A stretch of DNA of 64,000 nt from Bryum argenteum (taxonomy: Eukaryota > Streptophyta > Bryopsida > Bryales > Bryaceae). Location of the stretch: positions 16,737,001 to 16,801,000 of the forward strand of contig CM073321.1 of assembly GCA_037043015.1 (NCBI GenBank). Reading direction: 5' to 3'. A program made the position numbers and the translations under genes. This document shows positions 8,369-50,029 of the stretch, piece after piece. Position 1 is the first letter of the stretch; every line of letters starts with the position of its first letter. The notes beneath the pieces are model-generated. The model worked only from the letters and a program-made list of their open reading frames with translations. It had not been told where the DNA came from and searched no databases.

Positions 8369-8370
8369 TA

Positions 8371-24353: not shown

Positions 24354-24724
24354 AAGGAAGACCTAGGACAATGGGCAAAGCACAAAGGAAAGTGGTGTCA
24401 AGTTTCTGAAAGACTCCTTATATACTCCTTACTTCTGTAAGTCGGGGGCAAATGCGCATAGAAGGCGACTTGCGGTTTGGCGAGGTCGCTACAGCCAGAT
24501 CGCCGGTCGCCCTAACAACAACGCTGTTGCGCCATATGGACCGCCGGTCGCCCTGACCTTGACTTCATCGCGCGAGTTTTACCGTCGATCGCCCTAGCCC
24601 TGACTTCATCTCGCCAGTTGGATCGCCGGTCGCCCTAGCCAACACAGATTTTTTATTGTCATGGTCTTCTTCATTGAAGTTGAGTCCAGGTATTTGCTTA
24701 GACTCAACTATAATCGGGAAAACC
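24354..24724. repeat. Short tandem units with a GATCGCCGGTCGCCCT core
   Basis: Between about 24495 and 24645 the string CGCCGGTCGCCCT or a near variant recurs four times at spacings of roughly 40-55 bp, each followed by a GACTTCATC-like or AACAAC string. The minus strand stays open across part of it (24565-24813), but the translation shows no domain. The stretch ends at the left terminal repeat of MULE copy A. Confidence 0.5.
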
Positions 24725-24762
24725 ACCGGTGTGAGCGTTGAGCAGTGAGCGGTAAGCGGTAA
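24725..24762 (+). repeat. Left terminal inverted repeat of MULE copy A
   Basis: ACCGGTGTGAGCGTTGAGC is followed by AGTGAGCGGTAAGCGGTAA. The repeat is itself built of short GAGCGGT/TAAGCGGT units. It matches the reverse complement of 39000-39033 and, less exactly, of 49968-50009. Confidence 0.7.
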
Positions 24763-25555
24763 AGTTTGGGCGGTAAGAAAAAAAAAATTAAAAGTTAATG
24801 GCCCTATTACCACAAAATGGGTGGTTCTGAAATTTTGAAATGGTTATAAAAGGCATGAAAGTACCAAAAACCGTGGATATAGGTCCTTTATCCATTTCCT
24901 TTCATGGTATTGGGTCATACAATATTTCATAAATAATCCACATTTGCAAGTTTAAATAAAAGTTAATTAAAATAGGGCTGGCATCATCATTTGTAATTAA
25001 TGCAATCCAAATCATATATAAAATCTGAACCAAAATTTGGGATGGCCCTTTAGGGCATCAATAAGTTTATTTTACAGATTTTAAAATTTAGAGTATAATT
25101 AGGGCTGATGTTATCAATTACCTATTACATTTTTCAGATTTATATGTAAATGCTTCGGTTTATATAATCTGAAATTTATAACTACAAGTTGTCTTTCCGT
25201 GTCTCCTTGTAAGGTGTACTGAAAGACATTCACGTGGCATTGTAGTGTTCCAAGTTCGATTCTCCTCGGCCTTGTTTGAGCGTTGCACTGCGTCTTAAAG
25301 CAGCTATCCTGAGCTATACAAATATTGGACTAGAGCCCCTACCATCGTTGGCTCTAAAACTTTTAGTTTGCATTGAGTTTAAAACTTAAATATTTGGATG
25401 AATCAAGAAATTGTTAAACGTTCATGATTAATAGGTAAACTTCATGTATAGATATAAAAGTGTATAACAAAACCACATGTATAACCAATGCTGTAGGGCA
25501 ACTATAGATATATAACACTACGTAGTCTAAACCAAAACTAGGAAAATAAAATCAC
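24763..25555. other. Left subterminal non-coding region of MULE copy A
   Basis: AT-rich and without a gene. At about 25240-25265 the plus strand holds AAGTTCGATTCTCC, similar to a pol III B box, with a weak tRNA-like context from about 25178. That could be a SINE remnant but is not supported by an A box or tail. This region would serve as the 3' flank of ORF2. Confidence 0.4.
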
Positions 25556-28500
25556 CTAGAATGCTGATGGTGAACGACCATTAAAGTGTTGGTCACACTG
25601 AATAGCCTCATCGTCTATAAACGCAAGCACTCTCGAGCTAAAGCGTCGACGTCTACTACTGTCCGATAAGATGGGAGAAGAGGCAGCGACAAAAACTTGA
25701 GCTATCCGCTCCGCATAAGATGGTAGGGTGAATGTTTGCGGAGGACTGCTGTAGAGACTTCCGTCGCCAATCAAGTGTCGATTGGAACTTGCGATTCTAA
25801 AAGTACAGAAAAAGTCAATACCAATAAATCATTAGCAAGTGAAGGTGACAATAGAAGGGGAGAAAGTAAGAGATAATTACGCTCAAAATGTTGGACGTTG
25901 CTTCTTCGGAAGCGGTTCAGAACTATCACTGTCGTAGTCATAATCCGGAATCGTATCGCCGCTTTCTTCCTCAAAAGCGGTACCATGTACGTATGCGGAT
26001 AAAAGTCCGTCAAATATCTCTTCATCAGCTTCAACAACAATGAGATGACGGTTCGATCGCGCGCAGGCAATCACGAAAGCACCTACATATTAGCAATGTA
26101 CATCAAAATTACAATTTTGAATAAGTTGAATGAGAGTTGGTATTAGCAACAACTAACCTGTACTAGCGCTCCAGTCAAAGACGATTCCCTGCTCGACCAT
26201 GAGAGAATCAACAAAACATTGGATGAAGGATGGATCCTTCTCTCGTGAGCCACGCCACAAAGTACCATCTTCCTTCTTACGAATGGAGTCTTTGCTCGCG
26301 AAATTGAAAACATGGTCCTCCTCGTTAGGAGGAATGGGCACACCTGTATACTCTTTCGCAACCTGCTTGATGGTGAATCTGGTGGCAAAAGACTTTCGAA
26401 CAAAGACCTTAATGTGGAAGTTGCGAAATTCAATCCATGAGAGAGATTTAAAAAAGCGTTGTAAATAAGTGAAATTCACATGATTTGAATGCAGAATGAA
26501 GGCCATACCGTTTTCACGTGAGGGTTCGTCGAGGCCATTGGCATGGAATTATATCCCTACCAATCTTGCACCATTCGAAAATCAAAAGCATTTGACTCTG
26601 CATCCATAGCTTTCTCGACTCGACGGTCCTTGGGATGCATTACATGTATCGCACCCTTGTCTGTCAAGTTGTAGAAAGCATAAAAAAATACACTCTCGAA
26701 GTAGCTTTTCTCTCGCTTGTTCCATGAAGGGATTTCAATGGGCGACACGTCAGGCACGGGTAAGTTCTCAGGAACGTCTGCGTAGATGAGATCAATGCCG
26801 GGATGCGGGTTTTTCGTGCCCATCTCCTTACATGGGTACTTCCTGTCCTTGCCAATCTTTGGAAATCACAATAAGTTAGTCATGTTGTAAGCGATGTGTT
26901 CCAATCAAAATTTCAGACAGAAAATAATGTAATAAAAGATCTAAGAAATAATACCTTTCTAATGTGCTTGGTGAAGTTCATGACTTGCGTGTTCCAGTCT
27001 TTTGTTTCATCGGCTGCCTTCTGCACAGAAGCTCCAATATCCCCTTTTTCCAAGTACATTGGGAAATGTTTAGTAATCTGAGAAGACAAGCAATCTCCAA
27101 CGTGCTTCGGTTCAAGAAAACGGAGTAAAGCGAACTTCTTTCCGGAGTTGAGGTCAAAAGCGCTCGGAGGCGGTTGTGAGGAAATATTTGTAAGACCACC
27201 TGTCGAGACCCGAGTCGAATTTGCAGCGAAACTTCGACGATTCCCAACAGCTCCATGAGAATGCTAAATCAAATTTGGCTCACCAACACCTAAATCAGAG
27301 CCGTTCGCAGCAGTATTCTTGCGTTTCTTTCTCTTTGCCAGAGGTTGTGGAAGGGTTGCACCAGTCAAGATCAAGAAGTTGTTGTCGTCGTCCTCGATTA
27401 TAGCTTTGGTAGCAACCGCCGTAGAAGAATCTTGAATTGAATGCTTCTCTTCCCGATGGACAAAGTTGTCGTGACACTCGAGAAACCAACCTCCTATAAT
27501 CATTTGAGCATTAGTAAAACGGTTCTGCTGGTGAGCAGAAAACATTTTGTCTGAATCTTCCTCGACTACCACCTCTTTGAAGTCGGAGGGAATGCGCGCA
27601 GCGGCGAGGCTTCCCTTGAACACGAGCTCATGCTTGATGTACCTGCACGTGGAAGTAAACTTTTCAACGCTTGAAACCAAATGAAAATTAAAAATGCATG
27701 CGACGAAGGATTTGAAATAGAAACACACCTGAAAACCAATCGATTCCCAGTCTCTACACCACCCGCAATTTCTTTCAATTTGGAGCCTTTAAGGAACTTC
27801 GAGCTCGCATCGAGCCCGAGGTAGTTCTCCAGGGCCTTATCCCAAAGAATAAGCCTCCATTTCTCTACGTAGTCTAACGGCTTCAGAATGTTGTCATTCC
27901 AACTAATGACAAATTTTTTTTGTAATTCTTCAAGCTTTTCTTCCAAGTACTTGGCCAGCTGCAATTGGATAACAGACGTTAGAACATTAGTTTTAAATAC
28001 AATTTTGGATTTAATAACTTAAGGACGTTGATGTGGTTACCTGTGCCCATAGAGAGGCACAGTTGAGCCAGACACTTAGAGGTTTATTCAGGGCAGGCAC
28101 AGGGAAGTGGTTGGCCTCGCGAACCTCAAACGAGGAATTCCACCATCGAAGCCGTTGCGTCTTAAAATCCTTCTGGCAATTTGTCGTTGCTATCAGGTAC
28201 AACCGGTCGAGAGTGAATTCTGGGATGAGGTTTTTGCTGTAGTTTGAGTATATCTGCAAAGGCGGTAGACAATGAAAAATATTAAAAAAAATAAATAATT
28301 ATAATTGTGGATTTCAAATAAACTTGAATGGCTTACCTCTTTGGCCCATTTGCCCCCAAGGTCTTTGTTCGCAACGCCCAACATCTCATCTTTCGTGCAA
28401 ATTTTCCTTATTTCCAATTTTCTGGCAGTGTCTATGGCAGTCCAGACTCCCGATGCAGTGCGTTTGTCAATGGGAGTCTGGGCGTTGTATTTTGCTTCTG

Positions 28501-30100
28501 CCTCGTCTGATACCTTGGCAATTTTTCTCTACAACAAAAAGATATGATAAGTATGGGCAAAATATTAAACAATTTAAATACGATAAGAAAAATGTACGGA
28601 AGAATCAGAAATTTTACCGCGTATAGGAACTTCACGAACACGTCTATCGCGAGTAGGTACCATTTCTCCTTCTTTTGGAAATCTTGTAATCCTCTTTGTT
28701 GATTAGGTCTTTAAAATCTGTGAGCTTAAGTTTCCCGAATTTCCGCATGCGTTGGAGCTCGGAGCAAAAGTTATCTTCGACATGCTCATTCTCATTAGAC
28801 CTGTTTACAACATTGTTCAAAACATTGAGTAAGACCCAAATTGTATGTAGTGAAAGTGATAAAATAAAAATATGAAACTTCCAGAAGCTCACCAGTTAAT
28901 ATCGGCCATCGCATTTAGGAGGACATTTCTTTCTTGTCGACCGTCAAGAATGACGCAATCCACCGGAATGTACCATGGCCTTTCATCAGGATGGTACCGC
29001 TTAATGTGCCTCCTCTACGCCGCCTCTCGATGATTTCCTTCATATACGTAGAAGTACTTGTCGTTGAACTGGTGGAGGTCCGGATCAGCCATCAAGAACT
29101 CCTCAAACTCGTCACTAACCGCTTTCCAATGAGGATTTTCCAAGAAATCGTCAGTCGGTTTTACATGACACAGCTCCGCCTTGGTAGAGTAGAGAGAAAC
29201 GTACAGCACACGATCACCCTCTTGGTACCCCATATTAAACTCTTTCATGAGTTTATCATCGTCAACGTCAATGATCGGTCGGACCTTCGGGTGAGTTTTC
29301 AATCGACATAAAAGAATGTTGAAGCGTGATTTGTTTACCGGTTTGTTCAGAACCCGGTTGATAACATGGATGTGCTCGCCTTTGTGCAATTGTCTTATCT
29401 CTTCTCCAATCTATCCGGCGTCCTTGCCCTTAAGATGGTCCGGCATTTTGAAGCCCTCCATGTCATCTGAATCCGAGAGAGCAGCCCCATTACCACGTTC
29501 AACAATCGTATCTTCATTTCGTGAGCGATCTTGAGTTGGCACCTGAGACGAAAGAGGTTGAAAGAGCATTGTCTCAAATTCTTCGGAGTCATTGACACCA
29601 CTTGGAGTTTCTTGTGTCTCATCACTTGGAAGTATTTTCTCATTCTCGAGCGTGAGGAGAATTCGTGCAGTCGGCGATGGCGGTTTACGAGCGGCCTCTT
29701 CATTGAAATCAGAATCGTCCGGAACGCGCATCTGTTAATTTCAAATAGCGAATTGGGACAGAAGTATGAATTAAAAGTGGATCCGGCAAAATAGCATAAA
29801 ACAAATTATCACAATACATAATGTGATATTAAAGTACAATACTTATAGCAAGTGTGAATCAAGTTCAAACTAAGTAGACATAGACTTGAGTCTGATTGGA
29901 CGCTTAAGATACACTTTCGCAATCGCACCGACAAAGCAATAGTACTTAAATGAAGAGAAGAAAATGCCCTTCTAACACGCCTACCCACAACTACATTATG
30001 TACTCCAGCACACAAAGCTAAGATGTCAATTTCACAAACCGAATCCTCCTCAACGTTTCTCTTCTGCTCCATGCTTGTGATTTGCATAAACCTATAAGAA
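25556..30100 (-). pseudogene. MULE ORF2: ParB-like domain fused to beta-class DNA N6A/N4C methyltransferase-like domain (copy A)
   Basis: Multi-exon gene read right to left: an N-terminal piece near 30080-29890, a long exon 29731-28889, then exons near 28797-28645, 28530-28332, 28256-28043, 27965-27735, 27640-26955, 26858-26515, 26450-26158, 26074-25883 and possibly 25794-25556. The long exon holds VINRVLNKPVNKSRFNILLC, EFNMGYQEGDRVLYVS and then YFYVYEGNHREA, which fits a ParB/sulfiredoxin fold with its GNHR-type motif. It ends at a GT donor after MADINW, at the same place as in copy B. A coiled-coil-like middle (KYLEEKLEELQKKF) follows. The C-terminus has DLIYADVPEN (motif IV position), later FDWSASTG, and after an intron AFVIACARSNRHLIVVEADEE (motif I position). 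That order (IV before I) is the permuted beta class seen in bacterial and phage ParB-methyltransferase fusions. The canonical DPPY and DPFxGSG residues are altered. At least two in-frame stops lie in the long exon. I infer a modification or DNA-binding role in the nucleus; activity is doubtful. Confidence 0.65.
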
Positions 30101-30319
30101 GTCAATATACACAATTCACAAGGAGGTGAGGAACACGTGAATAGATAATTATATCACATAACAAAGTCGAGACATTTGAAGGAGAAAACCAAGGAAATGA
30201 CCAGCTGATTCTAAAAAATAAAATCAATTCGATGCCGAATGTTCCCCAACAGGGCAATGTTAAAATGCAATAAATCCCGACCAGCAGATTCGGATGCACA
30301 TTCCCTCGCCATCAAAAGG

Positions 30320-32600
30320 ACAAGCGGATCATAAAAAAAAAATTCTCAATTCGTCGCCGCAAGTGCCTTGACAGGGCAGCCTCACACGAGCTTCCCCCCA
30401 AGACCAAAAACGGATCCGTCAACATCAGAAAGAACGACAAGCACATCATAAAAAAAAAGTCATTTCGACGCCGCAAGTTCCAGGGAGGGTAGGCTTCAAA
30501 TGCCGAAAAGGACCGACGACAGATTCGCAAGCAGAGTCAGAGCGCAAGCTTCAATTCGACGAAAGAGGTTCCCCAAGGGGGCAACCTCACACGAGATTCT
30601 CCGCAGTACCAGCAACAAATCAGGAACGACAAGCAGATCATAAAAACAGTTTAGTCAACTCAACGCCGCAAGTCCCCGTAAGGGCAGACTTCAAGTACTG
30701 AAGCATACCAGCAGATTTGTGATATCAGTCAAAGCGCAAGCTTCAATGCGACGCCGCCAGATTCTCGATAGGGCAGCCTCACACGAGATTCCCTGCAGCC
30801 TCACACGAATCCGTCAGAATCAAAGGAAACGACAAGCAAATCATAGAGGATAGACAAGCAGATCCCTCGCTATCAGAAGGATGGACAAGCAGATCATCAA
30901 AAAAAATTCTCAATTCGACGCCACAAGTTCCCCGACACGGCAGCCTCACAAGAGATTCCCTGCAAGACCACATACTAATCCGTCAGCATGAGAAGGAACA
31001 ACAAGCATATCATAAAAAAATTGTCAATTCGACGCCACAAGTTCCCGAGAGGGCAGGCTTCAATAGGACTGACGAGAAGATTCGCAAGTTCGACACCCAA
31101 GTTCGACGCACAGAGACCAAATTCAACGCACAGTTGGACCGCAAGCTTCAATTCGACGCCGCAAGTTCCTCGAGAGGGTAGCCTCACTCTAAATTCCCCG
31201 CAGCCTCACACGAATCCGTAAGCATCAAAGGGAACGACAAGCAAATAATAAAAATGATGGACAAGCATACCCTCGCCATCAAAAGGATGGACAGGCAGTT
31301 CATAAGAAAAAATTCTCAATTTAACTCCGCAAGTTCGACGCACAAAGGCCTAATTCGACACACAGTCGGAGCGCAACCTCCAATTCGACGCCGCAAGTTC
31401 CCCTAGGGGGCTACCTCACACTAGATTCCCCGTAGCCTCACACGAATCCGTCAGCATCACAGGGAACGACAAGCAGATAATAAAAATGATGGACAAGCAG
31501 ATCCCTTCCCATCAAAAGGATAGACAAGCAGATCATAAAAAAAAATTCTCAATTCGATGTCGCAAGTTCGACGCACAAAGGCCTAATTCGACACACAGTC
31601 GGAGCGCAAGGTTCAATTCGACGCCGCAAGTTCCCCGACAGGGCAGCTTCACACGAGATTCCGTGCAGGACCACAAACGTATCCGTCAGCATCAGAAGGA
31701 ACGACAAGCAGATCATAAAAAAAATTGTCAATTCGACGCCGCAAGTTCCCTAGAGGGCAGGCTGCAAAAGGACCGACGAGAAGATTCGCAAGTTTGATGC
31801 CCAAGTTCGACGCACAGAGGCCAAATTCAACGCACAGTTGGAGCGTAACCTTCAATTCAACGCCGAAAGTTCTCCGAGGGGGCAGCCTCACACTAGATTC
31901 GCCGCAGCCTCACACGAATCCATAAGTATTAAAGGGAACGACAAGCAGATCATAAAAAGGATGGACAAGCAGATCCCTCGCCATAAAAAGGATGGACAAG
32001 CAGTTCATAAAAAATAATTCTCAATTTGACGCCGCAAGTTGTCCGACAGGGCAGCCTCACACGAGATTCCCCGCAGGACCACAAACTATTCCGTAAGCAT
32101 CAGAAGGAATGACAAGCAGATCATAATAACAAAAATAGTTCAATGCCCAAGTTCAACGCACTGAGGCCCAATTCAACGCACAGTCGGAGCGCAAGCTTCA
32201 AATCGACGCCGTAAGTTCCTCGAAATGGCAGGCTAACACTAGATTCCCCGCAGTTTCAGAAACAAATGCCTCGGCTCGGCATCAAAAGGAACGACTAACA
32301 GTTCATAACAAGAATATCCGCAAATTCGTTGAGAGGGCAGGCTTGAAGTGCCAAAACATACCAACCAGCAGATTCGCAATAGCAGTCAGAGCGCAAGCTT
32401 CAATTGGACGTTGCCAGATCCTCAACAGGGCAGCCTCACACAAGATTCGCCGCAGCCTCACACAATTCCCCCCAGCCGAAGACCCTAGGAACGACAAGCA
32501 GATCCTCTAGAGGGCAGCCTCACACGAGATTCACCACAGCCTCACACGATTCCCCGCAGTCTAAAACCCTAAACCACATTCGGAGCGCAAGCTTCACAGA
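30320..32600. repeat. Tandem array upstream of ORF2 in MULE copy A
   Basis: About 17 diverged repeats carry the core TTCGACGCCGCAAGTTCC, for example at 30467, 31028, 31153, 31385, 31617 and 31732. Between cores, GGGCAGCCTCACACGAGATT, ACGACAAGCAGATCATAAAA and CGCAAGCTTCAATTCGACG recur at intervals of about 110-170 bp with higher-order mixing of unit types. Short open frames in it are by-products of the repeats. The array lies in the position equivalent to the 371-bp array of copy B, between ORF2 and the ORF3/ORF1 side. Confidence 0.85.
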
Positions 32601-33530
32601 GGTGTTTCGACGCAGCTATAGGTCAGAGAATCATGTCCACCTTGACAAGAGGGTTCAACTAGTAACAAAACCCTTGACCGAAAAGGGAATGATCAGCAGC
32701 TTCGGAAAGGGAACTTACTGCTTTGAGCTCAACATAAAAACTTTGCGTGCCTCCCTCGAGGATGGTCATCTCTTCAGCATCCCTTCTCGCCATTTCTTCG
32801 TGTTCTCCGTTTGCAAATTCATCATGTGAAAACAAGAAGGAGTGTACAAACAGCTAATCTCACTAATAATAACCTCATTCCTTCAACCTAGTATTGGATT
32901 TGTCTAATTCCGGCTAATTCCATGTCCCCTTTTCCTACGATGTTGTTTAGGGTTTTCAGTGTCATTTGAATCGCCCGGCAGGGCTCTACCACCAACACGG
33001 CCCATCGGGCTCGGCGGGCAACAATTCACTAAAAATCTGCTTATTTATATCTAAAAATTAAACACAAAATACCTCTTTACTATTATTGATTACAAGCCAA
33101 ATTGCAAACATGGGACCTCTAAATGCAAACTAGGGACCGAAAGTACGAACTTGGGACCCGCAAGACCAAACTTGGGACCCGTAAGTGGAAATTAAACAAA
33201 TATAATTATTTGTTTCATTTCTTGCCAAAACTATACGTTTCTATCCTCTCTCCATCATAGAGTACAGTTATCCTCAAATGAAAGCTCCCAACCATGCAAT
33301 CGTGGAAAACGGTTTTAACATTCACATGGGGATCATAAGACACTCATTTATATTTTACAATGAAACCCTTACATTCACATCATTGTCTCCTACATTTCTA
33401 TATGGAATTTACCTATAATTCATACCACCATCAAAACTATGTTTGCAATATAAAATCACTATAAAATATATTACTCAGTCTTGGGCCCTTACATATCATG
33501 AAACCCTCTTAAATACATATTAAAAGTAAA
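32601..33530. other. Region between the array and ORF3 in MULE copy A
   Basis: At 32600-32830 there are open frames on both strands with no recognisable domain; the minus strand is charged and might be a remnant exon. From 32840 the sequence is AT-rich. It includes three short repeats of the type AACTTGGGACCCG (about 33140-33185). I call no gene here. Confidence 0.4.
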
Positions 33531-33532
33531 AA

Positions 33533-34290
33533 CTACATCAAATTGAAGAATGAATTCTCGTTGATTGTATACTTAACCAACCCGAGGTCCTCCCAGTAAA
33601 CTAGGAAGTAGGGTTTCTCATGTACCTCCTCTAATTCTTTAGCACTTGTTTCAAATCCATCCGTTCTATCATTCTGTGTTTCCTGATGAAAAGAGGCTTC
33701 TGCTCTCTCGCCCATATTAGTGACTCTTTTCTCCTCAACCGTTGCTGCTTCATCTTCTGATCGATCGTCTTCCTCTTCCAATCCTCTACGACCCTGAAGA
33801 CAACACATGTTGATATTAATCCATATACGGATTCGGGAATACTTTGACCTTTAATATCCACAAATTTGTATCATACATTACTTCATTACCTCATATTTAG
33901 AGTCCACACCTCCATCCTCATCCTCATACACGCAAACAGTCTCGCTAGACGTCCTGAATTGCCCTCTACTCCCTTCCTCCTCCCCTTCTTCAGCTTTGTC
34001 CGTTCCGACACACTCCGGGACACTATTGAGGTTGAGCGTTCGCATCTTTATAGTTCGCCTAAATGGCGGTAGCACATAATCGTCTATCAATATATCGTAC
34101 CCGTCTGGCTCCTGATCATCGCCGCTAGAGCTTCTCTCCGCAAAGCACTACGCTTCATTGCTTTAGAATTAGTGAACTTTGTATCAGTCCTCCGCTTCTT
34201 CTTTTTCTGACCAATTTCCTTTCTTCTCTCACTACAGCTAGCGGTTTCGTCTATGCTGCTTGCTTGGAGATAACTTATCACACGATCCAC
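33533..34290 (-). CDS. MULE ORF3: small basic/acidic accessory protein (copy A)
   Basis: Read right to left: an N-terminal part with a basic stretch (GQKKKKRRTDTKFTNSKAMK) that looks like a nuclear localisation signal, then LPPFRRTIKMRTLNLN, then a Glu/Asp-rich middle (KAEEGEEEG), and, probably after an intron between about 33880 and 33810, a C-terminus ending YFLVYWEDLGLVKYTINEN. Copy C has the same order (56290-55560): KKKRRGGIKFSGTKAIRRSA, FRHVKMRSLKLDAV, an acidic middle, and FMIYVHPNGYIQHWLIEN. Conservation of both ends between diverged copies argues that it is a real gene of the element. It faces away from ORF1 across a short intergenic region. The function is unknown; I recognise no family. 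Confidence 0.55.
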
Positions 34291-34770
34291 TTTACAAGTC
34301 CAAGAATTCTCACTGCAAATGAAGGAGTCGAACTACAGATAACAACACCATTATATGAGTTCCCATATGCGGCTAAGAAACCCTAATCCGCCAACGCGTA
34401 TTCCCTAACATCCCGCTATCACCGTGTCTGACAATCCACAATAAGCTAGTTTTTGAACGCATTATTATCCAACTATATCTCTGACAATGAGTGTCGCCGT
34501 CACTTTACCTTCTATACCTACTTATTTTATCGAGGGATCTAATATTTTTAATCGTGACTACTTAATGCAATTATGTCGGTCCAGATAATTTAAGTATTAT
34601 AAGTAATGTGCTTTCAAATTATCATGCTCACGATTAAGAGTATCGGGTACCTGTACGTTTCTTTATAAGAAATTATGTCTCATAAGTCTTCAATACGTAT
34701 GCAAACACCTTACACCAATTTCTCGTATTTGAACATTCGAAACGCACCTAAGACTCTCTTTCTCCGCGCA
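34291..34770. promoter_or_regulatory. Divergent intergenic region between ORF3 and ORF1 (copy A)
   Basis: About 480 bp separate the start of ORF3 (minus) from the start of ORF1 (plus). The sequence is AT-rich in its right half and contains several TATAA-like strings. By position it must carry both promoters, an arrangement repeated in copy C (about 56300-56860). No specific site can be proven. Confidence 0.45.
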
Positions 34771-34772
34771 CT

Positions 34773-37700
34773 TGTTGATGTTGTCTTCCTCGCCTGCGTC
34801 TATCATGGCATCCTCCGCTCCCCTGCCTCCCGCTCTAGACGTCATTGCCATTAGGTCTGAAGACTTAAGTCCTCCCATCTGCATTCCTCCGAGGGTAGAT
34901 GGAGTGGCAGAAGTCACTCCGTCTTGGCTAGCAATTCGTTTCAGGTTTGATGAGTCCTCTCTCTGGCTAGAGAATCAAGTCTTAGATCCAAACACTAATC
35001 TTGTCAAGTACTTTGTCCTTGTCAAACCAGTCGCCCTGGAGAGTAATTGTAAAATGTATAAGCTACGTCCCGGACAATATTGATTGTTCGGCTTGACAGA
35101 GTCCGTCATAAACGCCTCCACCATCCTCCTCACTCCTCGTAGTTCTTCTACCATCTCCACAGTTGTTCCGGTTCTGGCTCGTGTCATGGTTGAACCCCGA
35201 CTTGAAGTCCGAATTGATATCTCTGATTCATCCGACGATGAAAGAAAATTGTCCATCGAGTCCCGTCGACTATCATCGAACTTGCCTCCCCCCTCGTCTT
35301 CTTCTGAACACAGTCACAGAACCACCCCCTCTTCTCTTCCCGCATCCAATGTCGTAAAACCGAAAAGCATTCTTTCCTCGCTCCGTAGACTAGGAAGTAT
35401 GTCTCGCAACAAAACTGTATTCAAAAAAATAGTCTTCCATTCCATTTGTACTCACAGCGTCTCTTTCCTGCCTCCCACTTTCAACGGTGATGTCTTCTAC
35501 ATTCTCCCTCCTGTTCTACCAACTACTGCTGACAAGGTAGCCAAATCTATGGTGGGGATGGACAAAAGATACGACGGTCATGTGTGGACCAGGACAATGA
35601 CTACTAACATCAATAACAACCTCGGTTCGTCATTCCGCTACTCTAACTGTGTAGGTCATCTTCAATGCCACAATGAGAATTGCGGCTTCTTGCTACGACC
35701 TGACCGCAGAGCACAGGTGAATGAGGTGGAGTTCGAGGGCTTTACCAAGGACCCCTTCTCGGTCGGCCACGTGCCTCCTATTTCTTTAACACTGGTCTAT
35801 AAGATCTGCAAAGAACCTCCCGTTTGTGTTGCTCTATGCCCTTCTAAAATATTCTACGTATTCAGAGAGGAGAGTCAAGAGCGGGCGTGTGTGCATATCG
35901 GTACCCACGAACATCCTGTCAAAGTCGGAGACTACAGATGTGCACGTAAAATAATTGATAAGTTAATAGAGGAGCACGTAGAACGTAACCCACAAGCTAC
36001 CACGTCCAAAATAGTCATGGAGGCAAGCAAGGACTTACTCGGAAATTTACTTCTCCATGAAGAAGGTGACCCTGTAACCTCCAAGCTCACCCTCCAGAAG
36101 CTAGAACCTATCTTCGATCAGTGTAAAGAGCTAAACTCCCCCAGCGTCAGGAATCGTATTACGACTTTTAAGCACTTGCGCAGATACGGTGTTCTTGATG
36201 GGATCACCAAGCTTCGAGACCTCAACAACTGGGCTTACATCCAACGTAACCAGTTCCCGGGCCAAGGAGATGAAAGTGGCAAAGTTTTCATTTTCAAGAT
36301 GTCTGAGGTTGGCCCGGAAGCGATGTTGACCTTGTTCGCTTTATGCAGCCCCGAGGCGACCTGTCCCACACGTGGATGATGTTCGACCACGTCAAGCGTG
36401 TCAAGAACTGGACCACCATGGCATGCCACGTTTATGACTCAAAAATCTGCCGCATTTTAACTATTGCATGTTGTGATTTCCAATCTGAAAACGGAGAAGC
36501 TCAAATCGTCTTCTGGAAGAACCTCAACCACGTCATGGGCAGGAATGAAGTGGAAGCGCCGCAGTTTCAAGGGTTCATCGCCAACAGTGCGCAAGCCAAC
36601 TGGAACGCTGTGCGGATCATTTACGACTCCGGAAACCCTAAGGTGCCCATGGAAGGCCGCGAGCGGACTTGCTACTTCCATTGGACGCAATCCCTAGAGA
36701 AACACACCAAACAATGCATCGTGCACGAGCTGCAGGATCAACATCGACATCTTTGTAAGCAATACAAAGATGCAAGCACCATGGCTAAGACGGAGACAAG
36801 ATACTAGGCAATTCGAGCGTGGTGGGCGTCGGCGCAGGCCACCTCCGAAGTTGGATTAGCACACCTCGAACACTGGCTTGCATTTTGGCACTTTCGATAC
36901 AGGCAGTGGGGTGGCTCTATGGAAGTGGTGAGTCCGCAGTCTCTGTAGCAATAATGTACACGTGCTTTTATGTGTAGTAAATCCGTAAAATATATTTACT
37001 TTTTTACTAGAGAATCTTCTACTTTTTTGAAATTTTAAATCAACAAATTTTTAAATTAATTTTTAAAAAAAATATTTATTTTTAGATCAATCTTGCGGTG
37101 CGGCAAGTTAAATCCGCTCTAGATATTGTGATCAAATTTTTTTATTATTAAGTCAAATGTCTTTGTACCTTAAAGGAAAATAAATATTCTGGAGAGGAGC
37201 TGGCGGAGATGCCTTCATGTAACCTTGCGGAATCTATCCATAACAAATGGTTGCAAGCGTCCGGCAACAAGGGTGGGGACTTGTACGTTGCAGCTGTTGA
37301 TGATTATGTTCGTGCTTTCCTCCAAGTTGTGGGTTACCACGACTTCAACGGAGGTGGCAAGGGTGGTAATGGACCAACATCCGAAGAACTCTTACTTCGT
37401 CTTGCCCATAAAGCTCAACGAACCGGCGATCCTTCAGGCCTCACAAAGGCGGTTTCTGACTATCTAGGAGCTAAAAAGATTTGTACCCGCGACGCCCACC
37501 TTGAGGGGGCCGAGGTGTTCGGATCCAACACACATAATGGTGATGTTCCAATTGGAGCTGATGATGAAACCACAGACCTGACACCGTGAGCTACTCATGT
37601 CCCCGAATTGGGAGAAGGGTTACCCGAGCTAGTGCTGAAAATCTGAGTACTATCAATGAAGAGGATGAAGTTGAGGAGCCACCGACAGTACCATCCACTT

Positions 37701-38591
37701 TTGCTGGACGTGTGAACGCTGTTCATGATACTCAAGGAGACGAGAGGCTGTGACACATTGCCCATTTGAGGGAGAATTCGACCAAGACTTGTTGGGGTAT
37801 CATGCGAATGAGTAAAGATAGATGTGAGTCACGAATTATTCAAAAGGGAAAGGCGACCGCAGCTCCAACTTACAGTAGAGTATGGCAGCGCCCTCAAGAA
37901 GGTCAAAAAAAAACTGATCAGTTCTTTTTTTGTACGGATGATATACAGAGGTGTGTTATGGGTCATTGTCGCAAGTGGATTGAGCCATTTTCTCTAAGTT
38001 AGAGAAGATCCCTTATTCCTTCAATATCGCCTGTTAAGATAGAGACTAACCTTTCGCGTGATGAAATGGAGGCATTAGAGAATGCGGGCTTTCGACTACC
38101 ACAAAAACAACAGCTTCCTATGAACTGCACTTTCAGTAATGTTGCCCCACCAAGAGACTTGTCGCATATTCCAGTCCCGGACAAGCCGGATGTGTTCCTT
38201 AGGTCAAGATGATCGAAGAACATGAAACGCATTCCAGCTATGACTTCAAAGGACATGCAGAATATTGAGTCTGCAGGCCAGAATTCTGAAGGTGACCATG
38301 ATCCCGCAGCCTGGTTTTGGATGTATTGTAGACTTGGAGTCGGATTTGGATGCAGTTTACAGACTTTCAATTAGTAAATTCCCGGATTGCTCATGCCCAG
38401 CGTTCAAGAAAACAATTTCTGCGTTAGGACGGAGAGATCCATACCGACCGTGCAAGCACCTATACTTCATCACGGTATTGGTTTGCAAATTTGATCCGGA
38501 TGCTGACCTCTTCATCCACGTGGCTACTCTTAGTTTCAACGAGGTTAAGAAGATTCTGGAGGGAGGAATCCTAGACCATGCTACAGATTAG
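34773..38591 (+). pseudogene. MULE ORF1 transposase with WRKY-GCM1 and SWIM zinc fingers (copy A)
   Basis: The start is the ATG giving MLMLSSSPASIM or, by analogy with B and C, the later MASSAPLPP at about 34806. Order: an N-terminal domain (WLAIRFRFDESSLWLE; LFGLTESVINASTILLTP); a Ser/Pro linker; then DKRYDGHVWTRTMTTNI, CVGHLQCHNENC and ERACVHIGTHEHPVK, which matches the C..C..H-x-H plan of WRKY-GCM1 fingers fused to MULE transposases. The DDE core follows: IACCDFQSE (first Asp), GFIANSAQANWNAVR (Asp changed to Asn here), RTCYFHW (the C-x2-H motif) and, after an intron (about 36930-37207), MPSCNLAESIHNKW (Glu). Near the C-terminus FPDCSCPAF and PCKHLYF form a SWIM finger. Several stops and frame changes interrupt it. 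Cut-and-paste transposition in the nucleus is the family role. Confidence 0.85.
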
Positions 38592-38999
38592 AATGCCTGA
38601 AATCTCCTCATTTACATACGCCATATGTAAGTCCTATGATTGGGTGTATGTGATATTTTTTCACAACTTATTAACAATAATTATACCAGTACCTACACGT
38701 ACAACAAACCTTGCCAATTTGTCTAACTTGGAGTACTAATCACTTAGAAATATTACCTTAGAAACCTCTTGACATTTACAAATTGTGATTTACTGTCGAG
38801 TTTTGAAGCTCAAGTCCAATCAAATTCAGAGAATTTAAACCTTATTTCCACAGATTTGGGTCACGAAATCTACGGTAATAAGTCTGGAATATTCAAATAT
38901 TCTCGAGAATACTTGGGAATTATTCTCTAATAAAAAATATTAAACCATTTTTAGAAACGTTTCTACTAAAAATACAAACTCAGCCCTAAAAATTCAGAA

Positions 39000-39033
39000 A
39001 TCTTACCACTCACCGCTCAACGCTCACACGGTA
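39000..39033 (-). repeat. Right terminal inverted repeat of MULE copy A
   Basis: Read on the minus strand: ACCGTGTGAGCGTTGAGC, then GGTGAGTGGTAAGA. It pairs with 24725-24762 and lies about 400 bp beyond the ORF1 stop, as the copy B end does. Confidence 0.7.
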
Positions 39034-39124
39034 GCAATGTCCCCTGCAGAGCCGGATCCAACATGAGATACATTGAAGTTATACATAATACAAATAAATT
39101 GTTTCAGGAAAATATGACAATTAC

Positions 39125-40255
39125 TCACCAATTTATGTTGTTCATAGCGTCTAGAAGGAGGTTGCTCTCTCCTTGAGCATCAAGTACAATACAGTCTACG
39201 AAGATGTACCACGAAGGTTCCATCTTATGGTACCTCTCGATATGCCGCATCCACGCTGTTACACGATGGTTACCTTCGTACACGTAAAAGTACTTGTCAC
39301 TGAGGTGTTGAAGATCCGAATCAGACTGCAGCGTCTTCTCAAACTCCTCATTAGCAGATTTCCTGAGAGGATTCGTCCACACAGCATCTTCGGCATCCAC
39401 CATTTTTTTTTCTCCCTTTCTTACCAAAGGGAGAAACGTACATTATCCTATCGCCCTCGCGATAGCCTTTGTTAAACTCATTTTCCAATTTTCGGACATC
39501 TTGCTCCGAGATAGGTTGAACCTTAGGGTAACAAACGAGACGACACAATGGAATAAGCATCCGAGTCTTTTTGACAGGTTTGTACCGGAACCTGTTGATG
39601 ATTGCAATTGAATCACTTTCGTGGATCATTCTCATCTTGTTTGTACTCCAATCCGGATCTTTGTTCTGAAGATGGGTTGGCATGTGGACGATCCCAACGT
39701 TGACACTTCCAGGCAATGGAGTGTCTTCATCATCACAATGAGAATCGTCTTCATCATGATCTTGCATGGGTTGAGGGTGACAGTCAGTTTCCAATGGACT
39801 GTCTTCCGAAACTTTGTGTCTTCAGCACTTCTGCCACTATCATGTAAAAGTTCATCTTCATCCGAAGATCAAGTTGGTGGAGAATTAAGGAGAGGTGGTG
39901 TGGCTTCCTCATCTTGAACAATATGGACTTGAGCTATGTTGATCTGACAGTCCAGAAAACCAAATACAACACACCACAAAAAGAATAAGAAGGTATAAAA
40001 AGAACAATGAGATATAGAAAATACTACAAAACCTTTTTGACGAGATATAGAAAGTACTACAGAACTTTTTTGTCGAGCTTTGGCATCAACATTATATTTT
40101 CGCATATAAATCGCTCGTGCAGCCCGATCAACGTCATCACGTGAAGTGTGACGGACAGGTGACACAGGAGGCAGAGTTTCGGGAACCAAGGACATTGCTA
40201 TTACTAAACGACGGGATTCTACTACAACCATAATATGATCTCTCAGAGCAGACAA
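39125..40255 (-). pseudogene. MULE ORF2, ParB-like N-terminal part only (copy B)
   Basis: The first exon (about 40255-40065) reads SALRDHIMVVVESRRLVIAM and ends near YMRKYNVDAKARQ. The main exon (about 39940-39125) carries IAIINRFRYKPVKKTRMLI, EFNKGYREGDRIMYVSPFG and KYFYVYEGNHRVTAWMRHIE, then VDCIVLDA and a GT splice donor after NNINW. These are the same landmarks as in copy A, and Trp follows the GNHR motif where copy A has a stop. A frame change separates the GYREGDR block from the GNHR block. No methyltransferase part remains: the right end of copy A follows within about 90 bp, inside the intron. Function as for copy A is inferred from ParB/sulfiredoxin-fold resemblance only. Confidence 0.6.
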
Positions 40256-40468
40256 GTCGCTGTCAGCATCAGATTCCTCTTCACGAACAACTCAACAAAT
40301 CCTGCAATACAAGTCAAAACCACCAGCACACAAATTATCAGACACTATACAATGCCAAAGAACTTCACAAATGTAATATAACTTAAAGAAGCGACATTTG
40401 TTTTAAAAAGAAATCACATGCATTTGCACATGAGGGCACATCCCAAATATCACATAATTAAAAAATTG

Positions 40469-41877
40469 GAATCGAGCATCACCCTGCCGGACCTGCGTCG
40501 ACGCAAGTCTGGCAGGTATGTGAAAAATTTAGCGATAAAAAATGCCTTGTCCACCCCTACAACGGCAGAGTCATCAACGGTACACACATAGAACCAGGAG
40601 GACGACCAATTCAGAAAAATCAAGCTCCCTAACCTAGCCTCGGGCACGGCCCTCACCGGCATCGAGGACCATCTCATCAGGACGGAGCTGCTAAGGAGAT
40701 CGGCACACCACGAGGAGAGGATCAGCTTCCCCTCCTCAAACACAAGGAAGATCACCAGATCGACCCACCAACGCTAGAAAGATCGACAAAAAGTCAACAG
40801 TTTGTATTACATCTAAGATTGAAGTAAGCACAGAAAGAGGAATCAAGCATCACCTTGCCAGACGTGCGTCGACGCAAGTCTGGCAGGTAGGTGAAGAATT
40901 AAGCAAAAAAAAATGCCTTGTCTACCCCTCCAATGGCAGAGTCATCAACGGCACACTCTTACAACAAGGAAGACAACCAATTCGGTCAGAGCGAGCTCTT
41001 GAACTCAGCCTTGGGCAGGGCCCTTACCGGCATCCAGGGCCATGTCATTACGATGGAGCTGCTAAGGAGATCGGCACACCACGTGGAGTGGATCGGCTTA
41101 CCCTCCCCAAACACAAGGATGATCATCAGATTGACCCACCAACGCCAGGAAGATTGACAAAAAGTCAACAATTCGTGTTACATCTGTGATCAAAGCAAGC
41201 ATAGAAAGAGGAATCAAGCTTCACCCTGCTAGACTTGCGTCGACGCAAGTCTGGCAAGTAGGTGAAATATTAAGCCGAAAACACGACATTCGTCCACCCT
41301 TGTAACGGCAAAGTCATCAACGACACACTAAATGAACCAGGAGGATGACCTATTTGGCCAGAGCGAGCTCCTAAAATCAGCCTCGGGCAGGGCCCTCACC
41401 GGCACCAAAGGCCATCCCATCAGGACGGAGCTGCTAAAGAGATCGGCTGACCACGAGGAGTGGATCAACTTCCCCTCCCCAAACACAAGGAAAATCATCC
41501 GATCGACCCACCAATGCTAGGAAGATCGACAAAAAGTCAACAGTTTGTGTTACATCTGAGATCAAAGCACGCATAGAATGAGGAATCAAGCATCTCCCTG
41601 CCAGACGTGCGTCGACGCAAGTCTGGCAGGTAGGTGAAATATTTAGCGTAAAAAAATCCCTGGTTCACACTTGCAATGGCAGAGTCATCAACGGCACACT
41701 CTCACAACCAGGAGGACGACCAATTCGGCCAGAGCGAGCTCTTGAACCTAGCCTCGCGCAGGGTCCTCACCGGCATCCATGGCCATCTCATGAGGTGGAG
41801 CTGCTAAGGAGATCGACACACCACGAGCTGTGGATCAACTTCCCCTCTCCAAACACAAGTAAGATCATCAGATCCAC
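40469..41877 (+). repeat. 371-bp tandem array with a 32-bp palindrome in each unit
   Basis: Units start at 40469, 40840, 41211 and 41583 (period 371-372 bp); the last is partial. Each carries near its start a near-perfect palindrome of 32 bp centred on TGCGTCGACGCA with arms CTGCCAGAC/GTCTGGCAG (40484-40515 and at the same place in the next three units). Each unit also keeps a plus-strand frame of about 60 codons (FGQSELL, GRALTGI, LLRRSAHHEEW, SPNTRKII), probably a by-product of repeat conservation. The array lies upstream of ORF2, where copy A has its own different array. Confidence 0.9.
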
Positions 41878-41954
41878 CAAGCGATTGTATCGGACGAATT
41901 TGAATGATGGTGGGTTTTACGCATGTGCACAAGTGAGAGGCGAGAAGGTGATGA

Positions 41955-45300: not shown

Positions 45301-45437
45301 ATTTACAAAATATATTTTTTATTGAAATATAATTATATATTTTAATATCGTTAAAAAAAAAATAGACCTATAAAAAAATAGTGAGAATAGCCTGAAATTA
45401 GTATTTTCAGTATTGCCATGTCACATAACGATTTAGC

Positions 45438-45476
<39 letters not shown>

Positions 45477-45716
45477 GTGATGTTTTTTTTTCTACTTTTG
45501 AAAACCGCTGCCCATTCACCTACTCTTTTAACATTAGAAATGCTTTTTACCCTGTCCACCAGTAAATTTCGGTCGTTTTTACCTTGCTGGTCCAAAATCC
45601 CTTGCCAACGTGGCAATTTGATGTCTATCAAGATGTCTTCAAAAACATCCATGTCTTCACCAACATCTTTTTGTTTGGTGATGTCTTCATGCTCCCCCAA
45701 TCCAAAATGTGCCCGT
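42314..45716. mobile_element. Non-autonomous CACTA-like element, copy 2 (inverted relative to copy 1, one end missing)
   Basis: It starts CACTATAAGAAACGTGCG at 42314 and runs parallel to copy 1 read in reverse: the minisatellite, the dense GATGTC/GACATC subterminal repeats, the poly-A run at about 45440-45469 (poly-T in copy 1), and CCAAAATCCCTTGCCAACGT. Similarity stops after GTGCCCGT at about 45716, roughly 115 bp before the terminal repeat expected from copy 1. After that point the sequence is the 5' flank and ORF1 of MULE copy B. No coding capacity. Confidence 0.8.
42630..42770. repeat. Minisatellite with GACGTGGCACCCGGGAAAA units
   Basis: About six tandem units of 20-21 bp within CACTA-like copy 2. 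They are more uniform than the homologous units at 3125-3240, so they were probably re-expanded or homogenised after the copies separated. Confidence 0.75.
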
Positions 45717-45768: not shown

Positions 45769-48700
45769 CATGGCTCCCTTCTCCTCTGAACCCACTCCTG
45801 CAAACATTGTTGAGATTCTGTCAAAAGGTGCACTTGTTCCCATTTGCATGTCCGTAGGGCTTGAAGGTGTCCTAGAGGTCACTACATCATGGCTTGGAAT
45901 TTGATTCGGCTACAATGCATCTTCACTGTGGTTAGAGAGAGAAGGTCTAGAACCTGATACAAATCATGTTCAGTACTCCATGGTCGTAGATCCAATCATC
46001 CTAGAGAAATATACTACAATCTGGAAGCTTAGAGCTGGAAAGTATCGCCTCTACGGCTTGACGGAGTCTGTCATGAACGCGTCAACAGTTCTCCTGACCC
46101 CACATATTTTTTCTATTATTTCCACGGTTGCTCCAGCTCTTGCTCGTGTCAAAGTCGAACCAGGTCTAGAAGTCACCATTGACATATCGGATTCATTAGA
46201 AGACGAGAAGAAGTCTCCTCTGCAACCATGTCGTCTGTCGTCTGATATTCCATTGCCACCTCCTGTTAGGGATAACTATCTAAGAGCCACCCCTCCTTCT
46301 TTACTTTCCTCGCAAATTGTAAAACCCAAAAAATTTCTTCCATCCCTCTCGCAATCTCACTAGAATGCCCAATGCAAGACTCTCCTCAAAAAAATTGATT
46401 TCAAAACCATCCGCACTATCAACTTATCTTTCTTGCCTCCGTCATTCAATGGCAATGTACTCTTCATCTTTCCGCCTACTCTTCCTTCTACAACTCACAA
46501 GGTCGCGAAGTCCATGGAGGGGATGGATAAACGGTGCACGACGGTCATGTGTGGACTAGGACGATGATCACCAACATCGACAATACGCAAGGCTTGTCTT
46601 TCCAATACTCGAACTGTGTAGGTCATCTACAGTGCCACAACCCAAACTGCGACTTCTTGCAACGACCTCATCGAGTTGCTGGAGTGAACGATGTGGAGTT
46701 TGAAGGCATTACCAAAGACCCCTTCCCGATAGGCGGATCGCCCCCGCCCACCTCGGCGTTGGTCTATAAGCTTTGCAAAGAACCTCCTGTTTGTGTTGCG
46801 CCTTGTTCTGCGAAAATCTTTTACGTACTTGGAGAAGATTGTCAAGAGCGTGCATGTGTCCATATAGGAACACACCAACATCCTGTCAAAGTCGGAGATT
46901 AAAGATGTGTAAGAAAAAAAAATAGATGAGTTACTAGAAGAGCATGTTGACCGTAACCCTCAAGCAACCGTTTCCAAATTAGTTATGGAAACGAGCAAAG
47001 ACTTGTTAGGTAACTTACTTCTCCGTGACGAAGGTGACCCCAAAACTAGCAACCTTTCTCTCTAGCAGCTAGAACCTGTCTTTGAGCAATGCACAGAGTT
47101 AAACTCTCCGAGCATGCGGAATTGTATCTACACTTTCAAGTACTTGCGTAGGTATGGCATTCTCGATGGGATCACAAAGCTCAGAGGTCTCAGCAACTGG
47201 GCATATGTGCAACGCAACATGTTCCCTGGCCAAGGCGACGAATCAGAGAAAGTCTTCACCTTCAAGATGTCCGAGGTCGGCCCCGGTAGCGGTGTTCATC
47301 TAGTTCGCCGTATGCAGCCTGGAGGAAATTTCTCCCACGCATGAATGATGTTTGACCATGTCAAACGCGTTACGGATTGGACCACCATGGCCTGCCACGT
47401 GTACGACTTACGTTACCAACGCATTCTAACCATTGCATGCTGTGATTTTCAGTCAGAGGACAAAGATGCTCAACTCGTCTACTCGAAGAACCTCAATCAC
47501 GTCCTGGCAAGGAATGGAGTACCTAAGCCGCAGTTTCAGGGATTTATGGCTGATAGTGCACAAGCTAACTGGAACGCAGTGCGCATCATCTACGGCTCTG
47601 GAAACCCTACTGTCCCCATGGAAGGCCGCAAACGCACATGTTATTTCCATTGGAATCAGTCTCTTGGAAAACATACGAAACAATACATTGTGCCCGAATC
47701 GCAAGGCCAACACCAGATTCTCTGTAAGCAGTACAAGGATGCGCGCACCATGGAAGAGGCTGAGACCCGATATTGGGCTATTCGAGCGTGGTAGGCATCC
47801 TCGAAGGCCACCTCCAAAGTTGGTTTAGAACACTTAGGTCGTTGGCTTGCGTACTAGCACTTCAAATACAGACAATGGGGTGGATTTATGGAACTAGTAA
47901 GTATACAATTTCTTTGCGATATCTTTGCTCATTACATGCTCTACGGTAGCTTCTATCATGTTATGACAATTGCAAAGAAATTGACAGTTATTGTTTTAAT
48001 AATATATATTATTAGTTGATTTTTTATGTGGACATATATACTGTGAATCTGTATTAAGTACATATGAAGATTATGAATGAAGTTCTAATAAGTTTGTACA
48101 TTGCAGGAAAAAAAAATTCGGCAGAAGAACTCGCTGGATGCCTTCATGTAATCTTGCGGAGTCAATCCATAACAAATGGTTGGAAGCGTCTGGCAATAAG
48201 GGTAGGGATCTCTACGTTGCAGCTGTTGACGATTACGTTCGAGCCTTCCTCCAAGTCGTCGGTTACCATCAATTCAACAAAGGTGGAGCAAGTGGTTTTG
48301 GACCATCTGTAGACAAACTTCGTGAGTGTCTTAACGCCCAACGTCGAGCTAATCGATCAGGCAATCCATCTTGCCTCAACAAGGCAGTTATGGACGTCCC
48401 TGAAGCTGAAGTTTACTATACGCGTGACGCCCACTTGGAGGGGGCAGAGATTTTTGGTTCTAGGAAACGTAAGGCTGATGTTCCCATTGGTGCTGAAGAT
48501 GAAACTCATCGACCTGACACTGTGAGTTACTCACGTCCTCAAATAGGGAGAAGAGTCACACGAGCTCTTGCTGAGAATCCTAGTCCTATACACAAAGAAG
48601 ATGAAGTTCAGGAGCAACCGCTGGAACCCCCCGCTTCTCCAAGACCCAGTATTCAGCGCGTCACTGCTATCCAAGAGACGAGAGTGAATGAGCGTCTATG

Positions 48701-49530
48701 GCACATTGCTCGTTCGAAGGAATCCTCATCCAAGGCTTGTTGGAATATTATGGCTAAGACCAGGAAGAAATGCGAATCCCGCATTGTCCAAAACGGGAAG
48801 GCGACCGCAGCTCCAATTTACACCGGAGTATAGCAATGTCCTCAAGAAGGTCCAAAAAAAACTGATCAGTTCTTCTTTTGTCTTTACGATATTCAGCGCT
48901 ATGTGAAGGGTAGTCGTTGTAAATGAATTTAGCCATTCTCTCAGAAAAAAGGTCGACCGCCTATTCCCTCAGTTTGGTTCGTGAAGATTGGGACGAATCT
49001 GACACGTGACGAAATAGAGGTGTTGGAGAATGCGGGCTTCCGGCTCCCACAAAAGGAACGGCTCCCACTCAATTGCACATACGATACTGCTGCTATACCA
49101 AGAGACTTGTCACATATTCCACTGCCAAATAAGGCTGACGTGTACCCAAAATCACGAAAGTCTAAACTTCTTCGACGCATCAAGGCTGTGACTCTGAAGC
49201 ACATGAAGAACATTGATTCAGCTTGTGCCATGGAGGCAAAAATACTCGAGGTGACCATGATACCACAACCTGGTTTTGGATGTATCGTAGCTTTGAAGTC
49301 GGATTCAGAGTCTATCTATAAACTATCTCTAAGTGAGAACCCTGAGTGTTCTTGCCCAGTGTTCAAAAAAACCATAAATAAGTTAGGACGAAAAGACATT
49401 GTAAGCACCTATACTTCGTGTTGGTATTGGTATGCAAATTTGATATTGATAGAGACCTCTTCATCTATGCGCCCACCCTCAGTTTCAACGAGGTAAAAAA
49501 CATTCTAGAGAGGAGAATCCTAGACTAAGT
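45769..49530 (+). pseudogene. MULE ORF1 transposase with WRKY-GCM1 and SWIM zinc fingers (copy B)
   Basis: The start is MAPFSSEPTPANIVEIL. Order as in copy A: an N-terminal domain (LYGLTESVMNASTVLLTP), then HDGHVWTRTMITNI, CVGHLQCHNPNC and ERACVHIGTHQHPVK (WRKY-GCM1 finger), then IACCDFQSE and GFMADSAQANWNAVR (both catalytic Asp present), RTCYFHW (C-x2-H), an intron of about 240 bp (about 47898-48137), MPSCNLAESIHNKW (catalytic Glu), a long linker (AHLEGAEIFGSRKRKADVP), LENAGFRLP and PECSCPVF. The C-K-H half of the SWIM finger is disturbed by a frame change near 49400. Several in-frame stops are scattered through it. The promoter side is cut off by the CACTA-like element. Confidence 0.85.
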
Positions 49531-49967: not shown

Positions 49968-50009
49968 ATGGCTCAACGCTCACCACTCACCGCTCTCCGC
50001 TAATACGGT
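49968..50009 (-). repeat. Right terminal repeat of MULE copy B
   Basis: Read on the minus strand it begins TACCGTATTAGCGG and continues with GAGCGGTGAGTGGTGAGCG. It is diverged from the copy A end but has the same GAGCGGT-type internal repetition and lies at a similar distance from the ORF1 stop. Confidence 0.6.
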
Positions 50010-50029
50010 AGCTACGTCTCGACATCGGC

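Follow-up and report, generated by a model that had tools for sequence, protein, structure and literature searches.

A protein that joins a ParB domain to a methyltransferase has been described from a eukaryotic transposon. In Sola1-1_Ec32 of Ectocarpus this accessory protein is encoded divergently from the transposase; binding and modification of its own transposon were suggested, and it was predicted to make N4-methylcytosine (4mC) or N6-methyladenine (6mA) (PMC12477816). Green and red algal relatives are cited there (Iyer 2011; Petroll et al.), and the main text makes no mention of binding sites or palindromes. The concept of a transposon-borne ParB-methyltransferase protein is thus already known, since it was published for this Sola1 element. 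For VANC of the Mutator-like transposon VANDAL21, binding and loss of DNA methylation were demonstrated experimentally; its targets evolve as tandem repeats form, and the transposase is the more conserved of the two proteins (PMC5735166). Retrotransposons also bear methyltransferases, namely DNA methyltransferases (DNMTs), whose activity was shown, and Dam-like enzymes in DIRS elements (PMC5890265). Here we describe a large transposon resembling Mutator-like elements (MULEs) in the moss Bryum argenteum. It lies in a 64,000-nucleotide stretch (the window; C1:16737001–16801000 in a 258.8-Mb genome) and carries a ParB/methyltransferase-like gene opposite its transposase, with candidate binding sites between the two genes.

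A transposon with a ParB/methyltransferase-like gene

A large transposon is represented by the decayed copy A (Table 1), whose ends, 24716 and 39042, were fixed by comparison with other copies and lie within about 10 bp of those given in an earlier note on the window, which had proposed a single transposon with facing termini and divergent genes, as was found here. The inverted pair was 28 nt (24729–24756 and 39002–39029, 93% complementary), and no target-site duplication was found at the ends of copy A. The left terminus occurred at 266 places in the genome and the right one at 299 (up to 3 mismatches; 0 for each reversed control). Two copies on other contigs, E_L019 (15.8 kb) and E_L021 (about 14.9 kb), had exact 10-bp target-site duplications (GCCACATATG and GCTATCTAAG, respectively) and could be aligned to copy A at both ends and across both divergent genes; a third, rearranged copy had a 10-bp duplication TGTCCTTGTG. 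The copies compared formed a length class of ~14–16 kb with facing termini. Among 10 end pairs defined by termini, the duplications were exact over 10 bp in seven and over 11 bp in one, and matched at 9 of 10 positions in two. MULEs are defined by 8–11-bp target-site duplications, and their terminal inverted repeats are commonly hundreds of bp long (PMC6446971). Duplications of that size were found in other copies and not in copy A, and the terminal inverted repeats were present and short.

The transposase of copy A contained one frameshift and one stop. Stop-free transposase frames of 738 residues recurred among the matches listed genome-wide, which suggests that intact copies exist. The Mutator-like label of the earlier note is carried by the 10-bp duplication, by a SWIM match below the cut-off (E 0.058 and 0.23) and by C-x2-H and N-x-x-E-S motifs that we take to be of this kind, and not by a Pfam match: profile scans gave no MULE (PF10551) match. 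Nor was anything learned from an hhalign comparison with a MULE protein from this genome (probability about 0.3%, very low alignment depth).

The 10 end pairs were picked by termini alone, as the first 10 facing pairs less than 20 kb apart from the lists of exact termini, all on contig C1. Methyltransferase-like exons lay inside the left end in all 10, and the last transposase exon lay within 1.2 kb of the right end in seven, with none in the 1.2 kb read for the other three. With the first 100 exact places of each end used for pairing, 40 of the 81 left ends listed for contigs C1–C3 had a listed right end facing them at no more than 25 kb (random mean 1.06, maximum 5 in 500 placements). For 81 scored ParB genes on these contigs, 27 gene–end pairs had the expected arrangement (random mean 0.33, maximum 3) and 3 had any other. 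Genome-wide linkage was scored on 150 of 1026 ParB and 150 of 1151 transposase first-look candidates, so that its counts are lower bounds: at least 38 of the 150 ParB exons had a scored transposase core in divergent orientation within 16 kb (random mean 0.9, maximum 5 in 500), and 5 pairs had another arrangement. The ParB/methyltransferase-like gene is integral to the transposon, since copies with 10-bp duplications carried it and the transposase gene in this divergent layout, and the association seen earlier in two neighbouring copies was no single accident.

C1 (44.1 Mb), which holds the window, contained 52 of the 81 listed exact left ends of C1–C3 and 23 of the 36 A-type ParB genes among the 150 scored in the whole genome. 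It may be either a sex chromosome or one rich in repeats.

The exons of the ParB/methyltransferase-like gene lie on the minus strand from 29734 to 25559, and the transposase is divergent on the plus strand. Judging from exon order, both domains would be encoded by one gene, inside the element and divergent from its transposase, as expected of an accessory protein. The N-terminal domain, modelled from 107 homologues, had a predicted ParB/Srx superfamily fold, in agreement with the ParB-like part proposed from motifs; this model was used in place of one from 5 sequences, which was poor (predicted local distance difference test, pLDDT, 36.8). Curated profiles matched the ParB exon weakly (phrog_1033, ParB-like, E 0.07 and 0.35), as did DUF1015 (E 0.04–0.1) and DUF6551 (E 0.05–0.06) over or near the [DE]GNHR motif. 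The 120 homologues listed included one from the moss Ceratodon purpureus, and no relatives of the ParB domain were found in viral contigs, phages or plasmids at the settings used. The Ceratodon homologue lies on a 110.5-Mb contig, and its tag carries a V. The middle stretch 27569–28528 gave no significant Pfam match, and DUF1985 and DUF287, the domains of VANC, had no match in the scanned ParB, middle or methyltransferase-like stretches.

The joined methyltransferase-like exons matched PF01555 with E 0.0015 (19.0 bits) and 0.0088, short of the cut-off of 26.7 bits, and PHROG methyltransferases down to E 4.8e-5. Their motif IV region precedes motif I in the exon order, so the permuted methyltransferase-like domain of the earlier note was recovered. 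Two PDB methyltransferases matched weakly (E 0.7–0.9), one of them aligning the motif IV stretches GIDLIFADVPENL and SIDLIVADPPYGL, without statistical weight. In 18 copies of the motif IV exon, D-x-P-E was found in 14, HAPE in L041 and L047 and DVPK in L032, and L033 was broken there. The motif differed by lineage (DVPE in A and B, DAPE in C, DLPE in D), and a public protein, P0007, had YAPE. The catalytic motif IV of beta-class N4/N6 DNA methyltransferases, which we take to be [DNS]PP[YFW], was present in none of the 18 copies, and the aromatic residue in none, which weighs against ordinary catalysis. To judge from these motifs, the methyltransferase-like part is probably not an ordinary methylase, and methylation of the element by the gene product, as first proposed, is now less supported.

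The protein is under constraint. Nonsynonymous divergence (dN) was below synonymous divergence (dS) in all pairs kept, and the six exon/group sets gave sum ratios of 0.04 to 0.26; pairs with dS up to 0.03 or saturated were left out, and the pairs are not independent. Between seven elements with A cargo and three with C cargo and the usual right half, identity was 66–73% over the left 2.4 kb and 82–93% over the right 1.2 kb; within cargo groups the left 2.4 kb were 80–98% identical. The comparison omits the C-cargo elements L039, L041 and L047, in which most of the right 1.2 kb differs. Because the two halves diverged discordantly, similar transposase backbones seem to have swapped cargo lineages. 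L039, L041 and L047, all on C1, had left ends 98% identical and a right end unlike that of the usual element, with no last transposase exon nearby, and are possibly a non-autonomous subfamily.

Candidate sites between the two genes

The tandem arrays between the genes varied among elements in unit length and sequence. The sequence TTCGACGCCGCAAG (A site) was common to the six A-type elements read, with 8 to 22 sites each (91 in total, up to 2 mismatches, one orientation), and was absent at this threshold from four B-type or copy B regions and three C-type regions. Outside the arrays of three A elements 0, 3 and 2 sites were found. A logo of the A site was biased by site choice and was not used as proof. 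Exact A sites numbered 91 genome-wide (5 for the reversed control), and 87 of them lay within 10 kb upstream of a scored ParB gene and none within 10 kb downstream. They stood upstream of 20 of 36 A-type genes versus 1 of 114 others, and those near A-type genes were all (78/78) on the strand opposite the gene. A prediction had been set beforehand: the A-type elements L035, L043, L049 and L051 would have A sites, and the C-type elements L033, L037, L039 and L045 would lack them and carry their own motif. Exact A sites were found in L035 and L043. The C-type elements read, L033, L037 and L039, had no A site within 2 mismatches, as predicted; two of them contained the C palindrome described below, and L039 did not.

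Other lineages had other candidates. The B site, GTTTCGTTGACGAAAC, occurred 323 times within 1 mismatch (control 7) and stood upstream of 14 of 59 genes of the 55–59% class, versus 0 of 55 and 0 of 36 others. Scored genes accounted for 38 of the 92 exact B sites (random mean 0.5, maximum 11), all 38 on the opposite strand. Eight gene–site pairs lay on the downstream side within 10 kb, and the sites of the five displayed lay upstream of a neighbouring B-class gene. The D palindrome, GTCTCGGTACCGAGAC (16 bp), first noticed in one element, was then found at 48 sites (control 0), 0.66–3.2 kb upstream of 18 of 19 D-type genes versus 0 of 131 others; D-type genes accounted for 47 of the 48, the ParB search having been made after the site search. 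The C palindrome, TTGCGTCGACGCAA, occurred at 530 places (control 0), and 23 of the first 50 were inside a listed exact terminus (random mean 1.2, maximum 5).

The candidate sites were palindromic or nearly so in B, C and D, three of the four lineages studied. Perfect 12-base palindromes were more numerous than in any of 30 shuffles in five of the 14 between-gene regions (L029 and L031 of B, L054 of C, D and copy B). Such an excess was seen in none of the six A regions and in one of the 11 controls. The flanks differed among many sites within single elements. The right ends of L037 and of L035 and L043 were 91–92% identical, yet the first contained the C palindrome and the other two the A site; the candidate site therefore goes with the cargo half.

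Several observations weigh against these sequences being lineage-specific binding sites. Among the exact A sites, 9 of 91 were upstream of a single non-A gene, on the gene's own strand, and 16 of 36 A genes had no exact A site; of the elements in the prior prediction, L049 had only a variant word, and L051 carried the C palindrome in place of the A site. Palindromes were not in excess in A arrays, and the A site itself is a weak one at best. As many as 54 of the 92 exact B sites were not upstream of a scored gene. Several lineages had the C palindrome, and of its first 50 places no more than 7 were within 8 kb upstream of a gene among the matches listed (none downstream). When 12-mers were ranked by recurrence within single arrays, the site came first or second in only 6 of the 16 regions. 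The genes in the Fisher tests of the site–lineage association are not independent, and elements of the same lineage share ancestry, so that their upstream regions would be alike without selection on sites.

Copy B and other features of the window

Copy A adjoins copy B just past the ParB exon of the latter. The earlier note had read copy B as a repeat of the ParB-like part beside a related transposase. That arrangement was found again, with the ParB exon frameshifted and the transposase decayed, and copy A had the only methyltransferase-like exons found in the window. In another B-type copy, E_L031 (C4:22458000–22477000), a similar but distinct transposon end adjoined a broken-off methyltransferase-like exon; from this junction, these transposon families seem to nest.

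Two long inverted segments (226–3551 and 42314–45716; 78–95% complementary, 39–45 kb apart) flank copy A and are probably two inverted copies of another repeat. Inverted arms of 301 nt at 8362–8662 and 9020–9320 (98% complementary, 357 nt between) look like a fold-back element, with a third copy (80%) at 19595–19883. Open frames at 61385–63499 contained a reverse-transcriptase-like stretch, PFGLTGAPATFQR, and are presumably of a Ty3-type retrotransposon, a probable assignment that we base on the motif.

Table 1. Positions of the transposon copies, their genes, termini and arrays in the window
Feature	Position	Strand	Remarks
Copy A, decayed transposon, end to end (14.3 kb)	24716..39042	.	Aligned with copies on other contigs
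Left terminus	24716..24756	+	13-nt tip, then inverted repeat GTGTGAGCGTTGAGC and GGTGAGC-type heptamers
C-terminal tail exon, conserved	25562..25792	-	53% identity with tail of another lineage
Methyltransferase-like exon following motif I	25886..26089	-	ACARSNRHLIVVEADEEIFDGLL
Methyltransferase-like exon with motif I equivalent	26156..26434	-	VFDWSASTG at its end
Methyltransferase-like exon with motif IV equivalent	26560..26865	-	DLIYADVPEN (D-x-P-E instead of DPP[YFW])
Middle exons, about 5 by eye, without recognised domain	27264..28895	-	Parts conserved in other copies
ParB/Srx-fold exon of copy A	28892..29734	-	YEGNHR motif; two in-frame stops; fold model from 107 homologues
Array with 14 A-type sites (TTCGACGCCGCAAG, up to 2 mismatches)	30350..32215	+	All on plus strand; exact at 30464, 31152, 31384, 31617, 31732
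Transposase of copy A	35366..38588	+	Exons 35366-36322, 36307-36804, 37152-37586, 38244-38588; C-x2-H, N-x-x-E-S, weak SWIM
Right terminus	39002..39042	-	GTGTGAGCGTTGAGC inverted repeat again; 13-nt tip unlike left one
Copy B ParB exon	39128..39683	-	Frameshift at about 39420
Copy B tandem array (~371 bp)	40468..41885	.	Four palindromic sites, TGCGTCGACGCA core, at 40493, 40864, 41235, 41607
Copy B transposase, decayed	46376..49525	+	Pieces 55-77% identical to those of copy A
Copy B right terminus, degenerate	49971..50019	-	
Third transposase, decayed	57425..60546		Within window

Proposed mechanism, alternatives and known systems

We favour, with some confidence, the reading that the element is a MULE-like transposon with a self-recognising ParB/parS-like module that counters silencing or sets expression, as VANC does. 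Its autonomous form would encode two divergent genes, for the transposase and for a many-exon protein with a ParB/Srx fold and a permuted N4/N6-methyltransferase-like domain. Because the candidate sites are linked to lineage, recognition of its own element appears the most likely first step: the ParB part would recognise the sites of its own lineage and would then load onto, or spread along, the element, as bacterial ParB does at parS. The tethered methyltransferase-like part may then shield the control region from silencing or set the expression of both genes. A bolder form of this proposal, which we hold tentatively and at somewhat below even chances, is that lineage-specific palindromic arrays in the control region of the element are read by its ParB-fold protein, whose methyltransferase domain has been repurposed and may be non-catalytic, that protein and sites move between backbones as one cassette, that new pairs arise repeatedly, and that each lineage marks its own copies, and no others, against silencing by the host.

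The main rival to self-recognition is shared ancestry of the upstream regions. The sites would then be promoter or enhancer elements that serve host transcription factors or belong to the transposase, co-inherited with the upstream DNA, and the ParB-like protein would bind elsewhere, e.g. at the terminal heptamers. The sites do lie between the divergent genes, upstream DNA is inherited with the gene, and other array words recur equally strongly inside single elements. This explanation, which we regard as unlikely though far from negligible, is weakened because the array units differ between elements around a shared core, because the site follows the cargo half (the C palindrome in L037 versus the A site in L035 and L043) and because the site flanks differ; the palindromic or nearly palindromic form of the B, C and D sites is also what a dimeric binder would be expected to have. 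That the protein is an active N4C or N6A methyltransferase, targeted by its ParB domain to mark the DNA of the element, is doubtful: the PF01555 and PHROG matches and the constraint on both exons are consistent with it, as is the self-modification suggested for the same architecture in Ectocarpus (PMC12477816), but motif IV had no aromatic residue in 18 of 18 copies and its Asp was replaced in L041, L047 and P0007.

A partition-like or copy-control device, pairing or positioning element copies or limiting the transposase, has in our view a slim chance. A ParB fold and repeated palindromes are ingredients of partition, and one control region serves both genes; however, segregation is of no evident need to a chromosomal transposon, and no ParA-like gene was noticed in the element, where no search with a ParA model was made. 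Two accounts of the layout itself were ruled out, namely adjacency of the two genes by chance (by the termini, the duplications and the random-placement controls) and a host gene merely beside the transposon (by cargo exons in 10/10 elements). Capture of host genes by MULEs is known (PMC6446971), and the gene could have been a passenger acquired in the manner of Pack-MULEs, functionless for the element. This is highly improbable given exons in 10/10 termini-defined elements, several deep lineages, dN well below dS and sites associated with the gene lineage.

No published binding sites for transposon ParB-methyltransferase proteins were found among the papers listed from open-licence PMC. As far as these papers show, the MULE-like carrier, the altered motif IV, the discordant halves and the lineage-linked candidate sites appear to be new. 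Copies with the ParB-methyltransferase architecture number in the hundreds here, and their concrete candidate sites, which include perfect palindromes of 14–16 bp, go with protein lineage. If the self-recognition reading is true, the VANC strategy would have arisen a second time, by an unrelated invention that used parts of bacterial type, and the element would offer new proteins that bind DNA sequence-specifically.

The element resembles the bacterial ParB/parS, Noc and KorB systems in its predicted N-terminal fold and in repeated 14–16-bp palindromes near the gene. It differs from them in being a eukaryotic transposon with several lineage-linked sites. The methyltransferases of retrotransposons are likewise transposon-borne, but they are cytosine-5 or Dam-like enzymes in retrotransposons (PMC5890265). 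VANDAL21 is also Mutator-like, with a second gene less conserved than the transposase and subgroup-specific short motifs in non-coding tandem repeats; VANC has DUF1985/DUF287 where the moss protein has a ParB fold and a methyltransferase-like domain, and was studied by experiment where the present comparison is of sequence (PMC5735166). Sola1-1_Ec32 is also a large DNA transposon with ParB-like and N4/N6 methyltransferase domains in one protein opposite the transposase. Unlike that Sola1 element, the moss transposon is MULE-like, makes 10-bp duplications, has an altered motif IV and carries candidate sites.

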